The notes under the pieces: generated by a model
What the model was told of the DNA's origin: nothing
The model's database searches: none
What the model saw: the letters and a program-made list of their open reading frames with translations, nothing else
Shown: piece after piece, positions 26,961-38,014 of the stretch
How positions within the stretch are numbered: the first letter of the stretch is position 1
How the letters are laid out: every line of letters begins with the position of its first letter
DNA from: Pseudomonadota bacterium
GTDB taxonomy: Bacteria; Pseudomonadota; Gammaproteobacteria; Steroidobacterales; Steroidobacteraceae
Length of the DNA stretch: 38,014 bases
Assembly (NCBI GenBank): GCA_018261655.1
Contig: JAGTSG010000010.1
Location: 1-38,014 of the forward strand
Direction: 5' to 3'
Made by a program: the position numbers and the translations under genes

Positions 26961-29900
26961 CCCAGTTCGTCCACCTGCGCGTTCACACCGAGTACTCGCT
27001 CGTGGACGGGGTGGTGCGCGTGCCGGCACTGATGAAGGCCGTCGCGGCCGCGGGCATGCCGGCGGTCGCGCTGACCGACCAGAGCAACCTGTTTGCGATG
27101 GTCAAGTTCTACAGCGAGGCGCAGAAGCAGGGGATCAAGCCGGTCATCGGCGTGGACGTGCTGCTGCGCGAGGGCGACGAGCGCGCCGAGCCCAGCCGGA
27201 TGACGCTCCTCGTCCAGGACTACGACGGTTACCGCAACCTGACCCGGCTCGTGTCGCGCGCCTACCTCGAGGGCCAGCAGCGCGGCATCCCGATGCTCGA
27301 GCGCGATTGGCTCGACGGCGACAGCACGCGTGGCGTCATCGCGTTGTCCGGCGCCCGCGAGGGCGACATCGGGCGGGCGCTCCTGGCCGGGCGGGACGAC
27401 GAGGCAGGGGCGCTGCTGGAACGCTGGCTCGGGCTGTTCGGGGACCGCTACTACCTCGAGATCCAGCGGACCGGCCGGCCGGGCGAGGAGGAATACATCC
27501 GCGGCGTGCTGGCGCTGGTCGCGCGGACGCCGGCGCCGGTGGTCGCGACCAACGATGTCCGCTTCGTCGCGCCGGCGGACTTCGAGGCGCACGAGGCGCG
27601 CGTGTGCATCCAGGACGGCATGCTGCTCGACGACCCGGGACGGCCGCGCCGCTACACCGAGCAGCAGTACCTGCGCACGCCGGCCGAGATGGCCGCGCTG
27701 TTCGCCGACCTGCCCGAGGCGCTCGAGAACTCGGTCGAGATCGCGAGACGTTGCTCGATCGAGGTGACCCTCGGCAGGTCGTTCCTGCCCGAGTTCGCGG
27801 TGCCGGCCGGCATGACCACCGCCGGGTTCCTGCGGCAGCAGGCGGCCCGCGGCCTCGTGGACCGGCTGGCGGCCGTCGAGCGCGCGCCCGCGCTGCGGCT
27901 GAAGCCGGTCGCCCGCGACGACTACGACGCGCGCCTCGCGCTCGAGCTCGACGTGATCTGCCAGATGGGCTTCGAAGGCTACTTCCTCATCGTCGCCGAC
28001 TTCATCCGCTGGGCGCGCGACAACGGCGTGCCGGTGGGGCCCGGACGCGGCTCGGGCGCCGGGTCGCTGGTGGCCTATGCGCTCGGCATCACCGACCTCG
28101 ACCCGCTGCAGCACGACCTGCTGTTCGAGCGTTTCCTCAACCCCGAGCGCGTGTCGATGCCGGACTTCGACGTCGACTTCTGCATGGAACGGCGCGACCG
28201 GGTCATCGACTACGTGTCCAGGACCTACGGCCGCGACAAGGTCTCGCAGATCATCACCTTCGGCACGATGGCGGCGAAGGCGGTGGTGCGCGACGTCGGC
28301 CGCGTGCTCGGGCATCCGTACGGCTTCGTGGACGGCATCGCCAAGCTGATCCCGTTCGAGCTCGGCATCACGCTCGACGACGCCCTCGCCAAGGAGCCCG
28401 AGCTCAGGCGCCGCTACGAGGGGGAGGACGAGGTCCGCGACCTGATCGACCTTGCGCGCTCCCTCGAGGGCCTGACGCGCAATGCCGGCACCCATGCGGG
28501 GGGCGTGGTGATCGCGCCCTCCGTGCTGACGGACTTCTCCGCGCTCTACTGCGAGCAGGGAAGCCAGTCGGTCGTGACCCAGTTCGACAAGGACGACGTG
28601 GAGAAGGTCGGCCTGGTGAAGTTCGACTTCCTCGGCCTCAGGACGCTCACCATCATCGACTGGGCGGTCAACACCATCAACGCACAGCGCGCGGCGAAGG
28701 GCGAGGCCCCGCTCGACATGGCCACGCTGCCGCTGGTCGACCCGGCGACCTACGCGCTGATCAAGTCCTGCCGCACGACCGCCGTGTTCCAGCTCGAGTC
28801 GCGCGGCATGAAGGACCTGATCCGCCGCCTGCAGCCTGACTGTTTCGAGGACACGGTCGCGCTGGTGGCGCTGTTCCGGCCGGGGCCGCTGCAGTCCGGC
28901 ATGGTCGAGGACTTCATCAGCCGCAAGCACGACCGCAGCGGCGCGGCGGTCGACTACCTGCACCCGAGCCTGGAGGGCATCCTCAGGCCCACCTACGGCG
29001 TCATCCTGTACCAGGAACAGGTGATGCAGATCGCGCAGGTGCTGGCCGGCTACACGCTTGGCGGCGCCGACCTGCTGCGGCGTGCGATGGGCAAGAAGAA
29101 ACCGGAGGAGATGGCCAAGCAGCGCTCGGTGTTCATCGGGGGCGCGACCGCGCGCGGCGTCCGCGAGTCGCAGGCAGCGCACATCTTCGACCTGATGGAG
29201 AAGTTTGCCGGCTACGGCTTCAACAAGTCGCATTCGGCCGCCTATGCGCTGCTGTCCTACCAGACAGGCTGGCTCAAGGCCCACTACCCGGCGGCCTTCA
29301 TGGCCGCGGTGCTGTCCTCGGACATGGACCACACCGACAAGGTCGTGACCTTCATCGACGAGTGCGCGCACATGGGCCTCACCGTGCTGCCGCCGGACGT
29401 CAACGAGTCCGTGTACCAGTTCACGGTGGCGGACGAGAGGACCATCCGCTACGGCCTCGGCGCGGTGAAAGGCGTGGGACAGGGCGCCGTCGAGGCGATC
29501 ATGCAGGAGCGCACCGAGCGCGGCCCGTTCCGTGACCTGGCCGACCTGTGCCACCGAGTGGACCTGTCGAAGTTGAATCGCCGCACCCTCGAGGCGCTGA
29601 TCCGGGCCGGCTGCATGGACGGCTTCCGGCTGAATCGCGCCACGCTGATGCACCAGCTGCCGGCCGCGCTGCAGCTCGGCGAGCAGAGCACCCGCGCCTC
29701 CGCGGCGGGGCAGGTGGACCTGTTTGGCCTCGCGCCGGCTGCGGACGCGCCGCGGCCGCTGCCGGTCGACACCGTGCCCGACTGGAGCGAGGCGGTGCGC
29801 CTGGCCGGCGAGCGCGAGACGCTCGGGCTGTTCCTCACCGGCCATCCCATCGCCGAGTACGAGCGCGAGCTGGCCGCCATCGTCTCCGGCCGCATCGCCG

Positions 29901-32544: not shown

Positions 32545-32991
32545 CTACCAGCACGTGGTGGTCGTGTCGTCGCCGTCCGCGTTGATCGCGGTCCGCACAC
32601 CGCGATCGTCGATCTGGAACTCGCGGCAGTCGGTGTCGTTGAACTGCTGCCCGCCGCTCGCGGCCGTTGCGCTGACGGCGAATCCGTCGGTGGCATCATC
32701 CACGTCTGTCGGTTCGGTGATTTCCAGCGTGTACCAGCCGCGCTCGCTGGTGCCGATTCCCAGCCCGGCGGGCGGTGCATCGTCACGCTCGTCGTCAATC
32801 GCGTAGCGGTTGTTCTGCAGGTAGAACTTCTCCTGTGCCGTGGCCAGGCGCAACAAGGCTTCCTTGGCGTCGCTGCGCTGCGCGCGCACGACGTACGCAC
32901 GATACGAGGGCACCGCGACGGCAGCCAGGATCCCCATGATCACCATGACGACCATGAGTTCGATCAACGTAATGCCAGTCTGCTTTTGCAT
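32545..32991 (-). CDS. pilE: Type IV pilin-like protein PilE
   Basis: Minor pilin of the type IV pilus, made as a prepilin and processed by PilD. The 148-residue product has the prepilin signature MQKQTG/ITLIELMVVMVIM: cleavage after G6, E at position +5, then a hydrophobic helix. Position +1 is Ile rather than the usual Phe. The globular part has the conserved SDAKEALLRLATAQEKFYLQNNRY segment and a C-terminal disulfide pair (CREF near the end and the final CW). Start ATG 32991 has GGAG eight bases upstream; longer in-frame readings are rejected. It follows pilY1 by 50 bases in the usual pilY1-pilE order. Confidence 0.92.
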   Translation of the reverse strand: MQKQTGITLIELMVVMVIMGILAAVAVPSYRAYVVRAQRSDAKEALLRLATAQEKFYLQNNRYAIDDERDDAPPAGLGIGTSERGWYTLEITEPTDVDDATDGFAVSATAASGGQQFNDTDCREFQIDDRGVRTAINADGDDTTTTCW

Positions 32992-33010
32992 CAGGTCTAC
33001 TCCGCGGCGT

Positions 33011-33032
33011 GCCCCGGCCAGGTGGCCGGGGC
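33011..33032 (-). other. Hairpin in the pilY1-pilE gap
   Basis: GCCCCGGCC (33011-33019) and GGCCGGGGC (33024-33032) form a perfect 9-bp stem with a four-base loop in the 50-base gap. Without a T-tract it is more likely to protect or tune the mRNA between the large adhesin and the small pilin than to terminate it. Confidence 0.5.
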
Positions 33033-33041
33033 CCACTGCCG

Positions 33042-36000
33042 TCATTCGACGCCTCGCTGGCGCCAGTAGGTGCGAACCGGCTCCACCGAGAGTCCGGGCG
33101 GGCATACCGTGAAGCCGGCGAGGCAGAACACCGTCCGTTCACCGGTCGTCGTTCCGGGCACCAGCTGGTCGGTGAACAGGAACACGACCTCCGAGGCGAT
33201 TCCGGACTGGGTCAGCTCGGTCGACCGGTCGCCCGCGCTCTCGGTAAAGGAATCAGCCACGCCGTCACCATCGGTGTCGGTATTGAACGGCATGTCATCC
33301 TGATATATCGGCCGGGCATCAATGATGCTGACCACGTAGAGCCGGTTGGTGCCGAAGTTGACCGAACAAGCCTCCGGGATGTAGTCGCGCGGCGTCGGCT
33401 CGTAGGTGGTGAAGAAGACCTTGCCGCCCAGGGTGCGTGCTTCGGCCAGCGCTTTCTCGCCGTATGCCTGGGACAACCAGATCTTCCAGCCCTTGGCGCC
33501 GTCCGGGACCAGGTTGGTGGCCGCGTCACCGACGATGCTGGTCAGGTCGACCAGGTCAGCGTCCGACTCGGTGACGATCTGGTGGCAGGGGTCCGTGCCG
33601 GTGCAGGTCGCCTTGTACTGGGACGACAGCAGGCGCGTCTTGGCGTAATAGTCACGAATGCTGAAGAAGGCATTGTGCGTGTTGGTATCGGTCGCCGGCA
33701 GTTCGCGATGGCCCGAGCCAATGCCGATGTTGATGATGCTGCGCCCGTACAATTCGAAGGGCACGGCATCCGGCGCGTAGAAGAAGCGGCGCGTCGCCGT
33801 GGAGGCCGGGGTACCGTCTTCTGCGTTGCCGAGCGAAGCCAGCACCCCGCCCTCGACCAGCCGGTCGCCCTCGGTGGTCGAGGTCGCCGACTTGCCATTG
33901 ACGATGTCGAACCTCCAGACGCGGCCGCCCAGGTCGGCGGCGTAGAGCCGGTCCGCAAACCCGTCGCCCGAGAGCTCCAGGACGCGCACGTCGGCCGCGA
34001 ACGCATGCTTCATGTCGGGCAACTGCAGGTTGGCGCCGCCGTCGGTGGTGGGTCCGGCGCGCCAGAGCAGCGACCCGGTCAACAGGTCGAGCATGTAGAT
34101 GCGGTTGCCGGCGGTGTCCGCAGGGTTCGGATACTGCTGCCAGGCAGGGGGCGTACCCACCACGTTCTCGTGGTCGGGTGAATAGCCGCCGCTGACGAAC
34201 AGTACGATCTTGTTTTCCGTGCCGATCCGGACCCTGGCCGGCTGCGGGGTGGACCAGCTCTGGCCGGCGCCCGGCAGGCTGTCGTTGACCCACATGAGCT
34301 TCGGCGAATTCTTGACCGAGACGTCCATGGCGTAGTACGCCATGCCGCCGCGACGCATGCCGAAGAAGAGGTAGGCCTTGTCCCGCTTGCCGTCTGCGTC
34401 GTCGGGCTCGATCACGCCGTTGTTGTTGGTGTCGAAGATCAGCAGGCGGACATTGGCGTCGAGGCCGTAGTCGCGCTCCTCCGGGGTGATTTCCCCGTTC
34501 TCGTACAGGTTCCTGGCACGCTGGAGGAGGGGCTCCGGAATGAAGGCCCACTGCTCGGTGCCTTCGCCGGCGTCGATCGCGTGCAGGAAGCCGTCGTTGG
34601 TCGGCACGAACAGGGTCGCGTCATTCACGTCAGGGTCGGCCGCCGTGCCGCCGTAGACCAGCACGATCGGGCGGGCGTGCAGCGGGTCACCCATGTCCTG
34701 CCGGGTTTCCGTCAAGTCTCCGTCGCCGTCCGCGTCTCCGACGTCGCGGCCGTACAGCCACTCGACGATCTCGTCAACGGTAACGGTATCCGTGGCGCCG
34801 ATCCCCAGCATGGACTTGGCCAGGGCCGGGTCGTAGCCCGTGAGCGCACTCAGCTTCTTGCTGTCGGCCGTCAAGGTGACATCGGTCGTGTCGCCAAAGT
34901 TCACGTAGACGTTGCGGCTGTCCCAGTCGGGAATCTCGCCGGCAGCGCCGCCCAGCGTGACGTCCTTGCCGTCCACCTCGTCCGACCAGTAGCTCTGCGA
35001 GGTGCTCAACAGGAAGCCGTCTGCCGGATCGGCGGCCGGTGCGCCGTTGATGTCGACGATTTCACCCTCATCATTGACCTTGAACTTCTTGACGTTGCCA
35101 AACCAGCGGCGCGTCAGGTCGGGGCGGAACAGCGACACGTAGACATCGTCGAGGTTGCGGGTGCGGTTGAACGCGTCGACGGTCACCGCCGGGGCGGTGA
35201 AAGTGGCGTTATCCGTCAGCACGGCGCGGACGATGTCGTCGAACGCATCCTGCAGGGACTGCGCGTCATCGGCCTCGTAGTACCGTCCGCCGCCGCGCGT
35301 CGCCGTGGACTTCAGCAGCGGCTCCGCATTCTCCTTCGCCGTCGCGTCGAGGGCAAAGCCGATGGTGAACGTCTTGACGTTCTGGATGCCGGCAATGCTG
35401 CCGCTGGCGTCGGCCTCGAACATGAACTCCGCAATGTCGTCAACGCACTGGGAGGGAGTGGGCACGATAGAGCTGAGCTCCGGGTCAACGTCGCAGTCCC
35501 CGACCAGCTGCGCAAAGGTCCTTTCGCCGGTGCCTGCCGGCTCCTTCAGCTGCTTGATCGAAGTGTTGTCGGCGCTGTTGTCCTGCTCGGTCGTGCCATC
35601 CGACAGCATGACGATGTAGTTCTTGCTGCAGCCGTCGACAATCGGACTCTTGTAACGGTCGCTGTCCAGCGTTTCGCCGATCCTCGAACCGGCCACGCTG
35701 GGATAGGAGTGCTGCGAGCCGATGCCGGCGGTCAGGTTGGTGTTCTTCTGCGATGTCGGGTCGCCGCGGTAGTAGGCGTAGGCCTCGAACAGCGACGTCC
35801 CCATGCCGGTGCGGCCGTTCGGGGTGAAGAGCTGCACGTCACAGGCGCCACCCTGCCCGGGGACGTTTTCGTCGTAGAGTTTGGACTTGATCGTGTCAAC
35901 GGTGCCCGAGGCGTCGATGCCCAGCATCTCCATCACGACCAGGCCCTCGCCCGACTGTCCGGTGCACTCGAGGGTCCCGTCGCTGCAGGTCGGGATGATC

Positions 36001-36752
36001 GGGACGCAAGCCCCGGCGTCGATGTTGGCATCCAGGGAGTTGTTGGCGCCGAAGCGCATCAGCGAGATATTGACACCGTCGGTGTTTTTGGCGAGCTCGA
36101 GGACGGCCTCCTTCATGACCTCGATGCGCGGGCTGGCGGCCGAGCCGACGCTCGCCTTCCAGGCCAGGTAGTTGCCGTCGTAGAACGTGATGCCCTGCGT
36201 GGAGATGTTCGCCCAGTTGACCGGCAGGGTGGTGGCGGGGGGCGTGCCGTCGCCCTGGCAGATGACCGGAGTGTTCGCCGTGCCCTGGAGGTTGCGCCAC
36301 TGCGTGCCCCGGGAGGCCGGGGGACCGCTGGTCCGGTTCCACTGTTCGGCAACCTTGGCCGGCAGGGTGTAATAGCCCTCCGAATCCACCGTGGCCTTGG
36401 TCACATCGCAGTAGAAGTTGGCCGCCGTGATCTTCGGCGACGAACAGCTGGGGCTGCCGGAACCAACGACGTAGTAGTAGCCGCTCGTGTCGCAGCCCGA
36501 CGCGGCGTAGGTCGTGGCGGCGTCATACCCTGCACTCGGCGCGGCCACGTCGCTCCACATCGATCCCGACGCGTCGAGCAGGAAGATGATGTTCGGCTGC
36601 GCACCGGTGTCCGTCGCCGGACTGGTGAAGAAGACCTCGATGTCGGTGGCGCCCGCAGGCATGGGGGCGTAGCCACCCACCACGACGGGGAGCGCCGCCA
36701 TCAGGGTTGCCGTTGCACGGTGGACGACGCGGGTAAGCGATCCGTAATTCAT
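33042..36752 (-). CDS. pilY1: Type IV pilus tip adhesin/biogenesis protein PilY1
   Basis: Large pilus-tip protein that with the minor pilins primes assembly and mediates surface sensing. The 1236-residue product has a signal-like N-terminus (about 1-35), a von Willebrand A-like domain with the metal motif D60-A-S62-G-S64, and the C-terminal PilY1 beta-propeller (VPTNDGFLHAIDAGEGTEQWAFIP, near 715). Three Ca-binding-type loops are visible: D673-A-D-G-D-G-D679, D774-T-N-N-N-G-V-I-E-P-D-D785 (a full EF-hand pattern) and D1159-T-D-G-D-G-V-A-D1167. ATG 36752 has GGGAG seven bases upstream. Because of the pilX frameshift, the same frame is open upstream to 37307 and beyond. Confidence 0.95.
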   Translation of the reverse strand: MNYGSLTRVVHRATATLMAALPVVVGGYAPMPAGATDIEVFFTSPATDTGAQPNIIFLLDASGSMWSDVAAPSAGYDAATTYAASGCDTSGYYYVVGSGSPSCSSPKITAANFYCDVTKATVDSEGYYTLPAKVAEQWNRTSGPPASRGTQWRNLQGTANTPVICQGDGTPPATTLPVNWANISTQGITFYDGNYLAWKASVGSAASPRIEVMKEAVLELAKNTDGVNISLMRFGANNSLDANIDAGACVPIIPTCSDGTLECTGQSGEGLVVMEMLGIDASGTVDTIKSKLYDENVPGQGGACDVQLFTPNGRTGMGTSLFEAYAYYRGDPTSQKNTNLTAGIGSQHSYPSVAGSRIGETLDSDRYKSPIVDGCSKNYIVMLSDGTTEQDNSADNTSIKQLKEPAGTGERTFAQLVGDCDVDPELSSIVPTPSQCVDDIAEFMFEADASGSIAGIQNVKTFTIGFALDATAKENAEPLLKSTATRGGGRYYEADDAQSLQDAFDDIVRAVLTDNATFTAPAVTVDAFNRTRNLDDVYVSLFRPDLTRRWFGNVKKFKVNDEGEIVDINGAPAADPADGFLLSTSQSYWSDEVDGKDVTLGGAAGEIPDWDSRNVYVNFGDTTDVTLTADSKKLSALTGYDPALAKSMLGIGATDTVTVDEIVEWLYGRDVGDADGDGDLTETRQDMGDPLHARPIVLVYGGTAADPDVNDATLFVPTNDGFLHAIDAGEGTEQWAFIPEPLLQRARNLYENGEITPEERDYGLDANVRLLIFDTNNNGVIEPDDADGKRDKAYLFFGMRRGGMAYYAMDVSVKNSPKLMWVNDSLPGAGQSWSTPQPARVRIGTENKIVLFVSGGYSPDHENVVGTPPAWQQYPNPADTAGNRIYMLDLLTGSLLWRAGPTTDGGANLQLPDMKHAFAADVRVLELSGDGFADRLYAADLGGRVWRFDIVNGKSATSTTEGDRLVEGGVLASLGNAEDGTPASTATRRFFYAPDAVPFELYGRSIINIGIGSGHRELPATDTNTHNAFFSIRDYYAKTRLLSSQYKATCTGTDPCHQIVTESDADLVDLTSIVGDAATNLVPDGAKGWKIWLSQAYGEKALAEARTLGGKVFFTTYEPTPRDYIPEACSVNFGTNRLYVVSIIDARPIYQDDMPFNTDTDGDGVADSFTESAGDRSTELTQSGIASEVVFLFTDQLVPGTTTGERTVFCLAGFTVCPPGLSVEPVRTYWRQRGVE

Positions 36753-36769
36753 GATCTGACTCCCGGGCC

Positions 36770-37307
36770 TCAGGGCAGGCCCGTGGTGGACGGCAGGGTC
36801 GTGCCGCCGGTGTTGACGATGACGTAGAAGCCCTGCGTGTGCTCGGACTCGGCGCCACCGGGTGCGTAACCGTCCGCGGTGACCTCGAAGTGAAACGCCG
36901 ACAGGCCGACCCCTGCGCTGACCGCGCCGGTCGGGGCGCTCGCGGGCGGGGTGAACTCGCCGACGGGTCGCAGCTGGTACTCGAATTCCTCGGTGTCGGG
37001 GGCGCCCGGGTCGATTTCCGTCCGCGCAACGGTCGTGACCGTCGACGTGCTGGCGATGTTCGTCGTCAGTGCACGCTCGACCGCAACTTCCGCTGCCTGG
37101 AAGGCGCGCTCCTGTTGCTGCTGGTTGGCGACCATGCGCAGCTCGAAGGTCGACGTGACCACGCCCGATACGGCGAGGATCGTCAGGACCAGCAGGAGGA
37201 TCAGTCCGATGACCGAGGATCGTCAGGACCAGCAGGAGGATCAGTCCGATGACCAGCGCTGCACCGCGCTGGTCAGTTCCCTGTCGGCTTGTGGTGATGC
37301 GGTTCAT
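36770..37307 (-). pseudogene. pilX: Minor pilin-operon protein PilX, frameshifted by a 40-bp duplication
   Basis: PilX is a minor pilin that with PilV, PilW and PilE forms the priming complex joined to PilY1. The N-terminus MNRITTSRQGTDQRGAALVI starts at ATG 37307, overlapping the pilW stop (ATGA). After residue 32 the frame is broken by a perfect 40-bp tandem repeat (37175-37254). Deleting one copy restores a continuous 165-residue PilX running LVLTILAVSGVVTSTFELR and then MVANQQQQERAFQAAEVAVE, a textbook PilX_N segment, to the stop at 36770. As it stands only the signal and half of the membrane helix are read correctly. It may be off by phase variation, recently mutated, or misassembled. 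Confidence 0.88.
37175..37254 (-). repeat. Perfect 40-bp tandem duplication inside pilX
   Basis: Bases 37175-37214 and 37215-37254 are identical; the base before each copy also matches. Forty is not a multiple of three, so the duplication shifts the frame by one base. The unit itself encodes the hydrophobic VIGLILLLVLTIL part of PilX. Confidence 0.97.
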
Positions 37308-38014
37308 CGACGGGTATTCCGGAGCATGATGGTCTTGGAAATGAGCAACCTGCGGAAGTTGCCACCCGGGGCGTAGTCCACCCGATTGCCGTAACTGTAT
37401 TCGCGATCGTCGGTGAAGCCGCTCTCGCGCTGGTCGGAGCGCACCAGCAGCCAGACGCGAACCGCGACCGGCACCGCAGCGGCCGGCAGGCCGACGGTGT
37501 CCGGGTCGACATACAGTTCGGCATTCTGGTCGCCGTTCGTGTCCCAGCCGATCTGGACCTGCAGGTCCTCGACCCCCGACACGACCTCTTCGTCCTCGAT
37601 GGTCGGCACGCCGCCCGCGAAGTCGAGACGCTTGCGCCGAAGCGAAGGCACCGTCGTGCTGCTGTCCGACTGCTCGTCCACGTAGTAGCTGTGCACGACC
37701 AGCGCGCGGGTCTCCGACGAGGGCGGCAGGAAGTCCGGTGGAATCGTGTCGCCCGAGAAGATCTCTCCCTGGCTGCGGCTGGCCTGTATCTTGATCTGGC
37801 CGTCGCTGGCCGCCAGGGCCGCCGCCGACATCATGCCGGCCTGCGCGAAGCGGACGGTGAGCAGGTCGCTGTCTTCCACGGCATCCGTGTAGGGGTCGCA
37901 ATTCAGCGGGTAATTCGCGTCCGCAGCCTCCAGGTAGTTGACGACGTCGACGCCCCAGTTCTCGGCGCAGGCATCGATCTCGTCTTCCAGGCTGGCGTTC
38001 AGGCCTGCCGGCAA
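37304..38014 (-). CDS. pilW: Type IV minor pilin PilW, C-terminal part (partial)
   Basis: The frame is open at the right window edge and 236 residues are visible; the prepilin leader and N-terminal helix lie outside. The call rests on context (directly upstream of pilX-pilY1-pilE with a four-base ATGA overlap) and on PilW-like features: DLLTVRFAQAG near the start, a GVEDLQVQIGWDTNGD segment, AVRVWLLVRSD and the C-terminal RRLLISKTIMLRNTR. Acidic, Asp-rich stretches resemble calcium-binding loops but do not complete an EF-hand. PilW is required to place PilX and PilY1 at the pilus base or tip. Confidence 0.85.
   Translation of the reverse strand: MPAGLNASLEDEIDACAENWGVDVVNYLEAADANYPLNCDPYTDAVEDSDLLTVRFAQAGMMSAAALAASDGQIKIQASRSQGEIFSGDTIPPDFLPPSSETRALVVHSYYVDEQSDSSTTVPSLRRKRLDFAGGVPTIEDEEVVSGVEDLQVQIGWDTNGDQNAELYVDPDTVGLPAAAVPVAVRVWLLVRSDQRESGFTDDREYSYGNRVDYAPGGNFRRLLISKTIMLRNTRR

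Follow-up and report, generated by a model that had tools for sequence, protein, structure and literature searches.

Genes and features of the minor-pilin locus

The window analysed here, 38,014 nucleotides in length, is a whole contig (C121) of a metagenome-assembled genome (MAG) of 2.22 Mb in 122 contigs, estimated to be 74.6% complete, from an uncultured bacterium of the family Steroidobacteraceae. One end of the window is occupied by a minor-pilin cluster read from the minus strand, whose features, taken in the reading direction of the genes, are the following:

37304–38014, minus strand: pilW, matching PF16074 (PilW) with E 7.8e-19; the gene reaches the contig end and its start is not seen
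37214–37307, minus strand: 5' part of pilX, from the ATG at 37307, with the N-terminal segment and a first reading of the helix; PilX_N positions 1–19 at 37212–37268
37214–37253, minus strand: copy B of a 40-bp unit, the upstream copy in the reading direction of pilX
37174–37213, minus strand: copy A of the 40-bp unit, the downstream copy in the same direction, 100% identical to copy B
36770–37222, minus strand: 3' part of pilX in another frame, in which the helix is read a second time and PilX is completed; PilX_N positions 6–51 at 37076–37213
33042–36752, minus strand: pilY1-like gene that follows pilX and shares the frame of the pilX ATG, assigned from its open reading frame and position
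32545–33105, minus strand: type IV pilin gene closing the cluster, matching PF07963 (N_methyl) and PF16732 (ComP_DUS)

In its helix sequence, its gene order, and its conserved AFQAAE motif, pilX resembles the PilX_N (PF14341) minor pilins of other pilW-pilX-pilY1 clusters, from which it differs in that the second 40-bp copy breaks its frame in the assembly. The start codon of pilX overlaps the stop codon of pilW, which lies upstream and is recognized by its family profile, and the long open reading frame downstream is recognized as pilY1-like by position and sequence, which we take to be typical of PilY1; its sole profile match is a weak, partial one to BamB. The family match of the type IV pilin that closes the cluster is to ComP, a DNA-uptake-sequence receptor. 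The same genome also encodes a second, weaker PilX_N-like protein (22.6 bits; contig C84, 18923–19072, locus L170), and proteins similar to it occur in several genomes of the same genus (L166, L167, and L169).

A perfect 40-bp duplication within the PilX helix

The original prediction described a perfect 40-bp tandem duplication in the codons for the PilX membrane helix that shifts the frame when both copies are kept, and each of these points is borne out. TRF and a second repeat search both return two abutting units, 37174–37213 and 37214–37253, that are 100% identical and present in two copies; the period match covers 41 bp, with one extra matching base at 37254 past copy B, and the junction homology is 1 bp. 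Both units stand on the minus strand within the codons of the hydrophobic helix. A chance origin can be set aside, since a third-order Markov simulation of 3.6 Mb at matched composition produced not one perfect tandem duplication of units of 15 bp or longer.

The consequences for the coding sequence are visible in the translations and in the profile search alike. The upstream frame reads MNRITTSRQGTDQRGAALVIGLILLLVLTIL and, from the ATG, passes through RGAALVIGLILLLVLTIL before it goes out of the PilX frame, and the downstream frame (36770–37222) re-enters inside the helix with VIGLILLLVLTILAVSGVV and continues to the end of the protein. The upstream frame matches PilX_N positions 1–19 and the downstream frame positions 6–51, the latter at 48.7 bits against a cut-off of 25.5; because these two matches overlap, each of positions 6–19 (some 14 positions) has a codon in both frames. 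With a single unit the PilX frame is thus open, and with a second unit it is shifted, so that the DNA as assembled holds no single uninterrupted pilX.

With two copies, the frame that begins at the pilX start codon meets no stop and remains open into pilY1 (open reading frame 33042–37901, minus strand), a feature that the original prediction did not mention. The assembled DNA would, through this shifted frame, encode a fusion of the PilX helix to PilY1, and it may be asked whether the two-copy frame is itself functional and makes such a protein. We regard this as extremely improbable: uninterrupted as the frame is from the pilX ATG through pilY1, the window has a GC content of about 70% and carries long spurious open frames throughout, on both strands, the segment that would link the two proteins has no family match, and pilY1 keeps a start of its own.

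Comparison with relatives and the case for a switch

The original prediction went on to propose a selected, reversible on/off switch, in which the gain or loss of one 40-bp copy would toggle pilX and with it the priming of pili. The proposal has some logic on its side, since the frame behaves as it demands and tandem copies of such a size can in principle be gained and lost. It also has a precedent of a kind in Mycobacterium tuberculosis, in which copy-number change in promoter repeats of 54–57 bp has been reported to be phase-variable (PMC12817950); that system is comparable to ours in unit size and in the form of the change, and differs in that its repeats are located in promoters, are present in several copies, and vary among isolates and single reads. 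A literature search on pilus genes switched by reversible tandem duplication yielded no relevant paper. The comparison that had been drawn with the phase-variable pilus-tip genes of Neisseria would hold for the outcome, a frame change that turns off a pilus-assembly protein. Phase variation of Neisseria pilC works through homopolymer tracts and single-base changes, whereas the present locus has a two-copy unit of 40 bp and no evidence of variation.

A comparison of pilX with its relatives, which the original prediction had called for, was carried out and speaks against such a switch. Homologues of the 3' part of pilX were found in 15 of 40 related genomes, and the helix was read at 18 loci from this related-genome search and at 35 loci from a contig search, which together make about 45 distinct homologues after removal of shared contigs. 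In the contig search, a scan with the C-terminal part of pilX alone gave no confirmed relatives, and a scan with a nine-sequence alignment of the helix gave 37 loci. Every readable helix among these homologues, which belong to related families, is single-copy, and none carries a duplication of this type; the possibility that the repeat is conserved among relatives was accordingly rejected. In the five genomes of the same genus, no DNA orthologous to the pilX locus was found, so this part of the comparison added no further homologue, and no plasmid copy of pilX was found either. The repeat is therefore neither retained nor seen to vary among these relatives, whereas a phase-variable locus would be expected to show one or the other. 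As a control for the background of such repeats, the 37 gammaproteobacterial loci of the contig search, totalling 0.56 Mb, contained one perfect tandem duplication, of 18 bp, a comparison of little power in that only about 1.2 long duplications would be expected there at the rate of the MAG (probability of none, about 0.3).

The make-up of the repeat points in the same direction, as it consists of two copies only with 1 bp of junction homology. A special DNA structure at the repeat was considered and rejected, the strand fold giving no signal beyond chance (z 0.19).

Similar duplications elsewhere in the assembly

A pilus switch would be expected to have no counterpart elsewhere in the genome, or to have its counterparts in other surface genes. 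We therefore listed all perfect head-to-tail duplications whose unit measures 15 bp or more in 1.82 of the 2.22 Mb of the assembly and found, besides the 40-bp unit in pilX, three others with units of at least 32 bp:

L113:8394–8458 (contig C90): 32-bp two-copy duplication, breaking cca, the gene for the CCA-adding enzyme
L142:9230–9353 (contig C11, about 29129–29252): 62-bp two-copy duplication, interrupting a GreA/GreB-family gene close to the 5' end
L049:15743–15846 (contig C26): 52-bp two-copy duplication in non-coding DNA downstream of rpiA

All four of these long duplications (32, 40, 52, and 62 bp) have exactly two copies, none has a unit length divisible by three, and their junction homologies are 0, 0, 1, and 1 bp, which is no greater than expected from blunt joining. 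Slippage usually leaves more junction homology than this. All but the 52-bp duplication interrupt conserved genes, namely pilX, cca, and the GreA/GreB-family gene. In cca, the match to the model of the multifunctional CCA addition/repair protein (610 bits) stops at position 353 of 409, with the remainder in another frame, and in the GreA/GreB-family gene the frame that remains lacks the first 30 or so positions of the model. The 52-bp duplication, for its part, lies in repetitive sequence where words resembling CTTCGCTC abound.

The shorter units found in the same 1.82 Mb (15, 18, 18, and 21 bp) have lengths divisible by three without exception, as would be expected from selection acting on genuine coding sequence. 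One of the 18-bp units forms an in-frame array of 4.4 perfect copies on contig C14 (L037:10003–10082), coding for a VTVESP repeat linker in a protein of 801 amino acids, and this array looks like a genuine variable-number repeat.

By the simulation described above, these duplications are not a product of chance either. The long ones are several events of one form that ignore both gene function and reading frame, as expected of assembly mistakes or unselected mutations and not of an evolved pilus switch. Far from being confined to surface or accessory genes, they fall in cca and in a gene of the GreA/GreB family, housekeeping genes in which a phase switch makes little sense. Were the switch nevertheless real, the genome might use perfect tandem duplications of 30–60 bp as a general switch, in cca and the GreA/GreB-family gene too. 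Given the one-copy relatives, the 1-bp junction homology, and the companion duplications in these two genes, the proposal of a reversible switch finds no support and we judge it highly unlikely.

A possible real but unselected duplication

A different reading accepts the duplication as real and recent, and regards it as an unselected event by which the sampled strain, or part of the population, has lost pilX function; reversion by chance would be possible, and the event would count as a common loss-of-function mutation rather than a switch. The perfect identity of the copies and the undecayed state of the rest of pilX, with its score against PilX_N and its clear homologues, are what such a recent event would leave, and the loss of a minor pilin need not be lethal. 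Against this stands the need for independent events of the same kind in cca and in the GreA/GreB-family gene of the same genome, all of them with junctions of 0–1 bp homology.

Since two further genes with GreA/GreB domains are present in the genome, the loss of the broken family member would be survivable on its own. The broken cca is the only candidate for a CCA-adding enzyme that was found, apart from a second protein of the poly(A)-polymerase type, a PF12627 match that is probably a poly(A) polymerase. We considered whether cca might be dispensable on the grounds that the tRNA genes encode the CCA end themselves, and rejected this: 19 of the 21 predicted tRNA genes do so, but at least one, a Met(CAT) gene on contig C52, does not (the remaining one looks like a spurious Ala prediction). 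With no clear second cca and a Met(CAT) tRNA that lacks an encoded CCA end, losing the C-terminus of the enzyme should cost fitness, which also counts against real duplications in this genome. We hold a real, unselected duplication in pilX to be possible, if rather unlikely.

An assembly error as the most probable origin

Together, these observations favour a local error in the short-read assembly as the source of the second 40-bp copy, a reading to which we assign a probability of roughly 0.7. Between the repeat and the contig end there are 760 bp. Exact overlaps of 99 bp are common to many contig tips of the same assembly and one of its contigs contains a scaffold gap of 33 Ns; these tips and this gap mark a de Bruijn short-read assembly with a k of about 99–100 and a scaffolding step, and the division into 122 contigs likewise places it among draft short-read assemblies, in which local errors of this kind can arise. 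Chen et al. 2020 (PMC7111523) give the usual tip overlaps of IDBA-UD and metaSPAdes contigs as n and n−1, where n is the largest k, so that the 99-bp tips fit a k of 99 or 100 and do not name the assembler. The join errors in MAGs described in that work resemble the present case in arising in short-read drafts with a k of around 100, in the perfect extra copy, in the broken coding genes, and in the occurrence of several cases per bin; they differ in that no Ns stand between the copies here. A search for literature on this exact artefact found nothing direct.

Under an assembly error, the stretch would have been written twice at the join of two overlapping pieces, or by local reassembly, and the extra copy would be without read support. 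Two considerations run against it: there are no Ns at the junction of the pilX duplication, and the 81-bp array is shorter than the k of about 99, so that a normal contig should have needed read words spanning both copies. The error would then have to stem from an earlier k iteration, from local assembly, or from a scaffold join. It is because an array shorter than k should have been resolved from the reads that we hold the error at the probability given above and leave room for a real, unselected duplication. Of the original prediction, then, the duplication, its place, the frame break, and the alternatives that it listed, an assembly error and a loss of function, all stand, and the switch is not supported; since similar doublings disrupt cca and the GreA/GreB-family gene, two housekeeping genes with no relation to pili, the likeliest explanation is a mistake of assembly or a single chance mutation.

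Implications

Perfect two-copy duplications with a unit of more than 30 bp that is not a multiple of three are an easy warning sign of assembly error in a draft genome, and are worth counting genome-wide before a gene is called phase-variable or a pseudogene. As for the bacterium itself, living cells probably have an intact pilX with a single copy of the unit, set in a pilW-pilX-pilY1 cluster of the usual kind that has no switch; as biology, the duplication is probably of no consequence, pilX being most likely intact.
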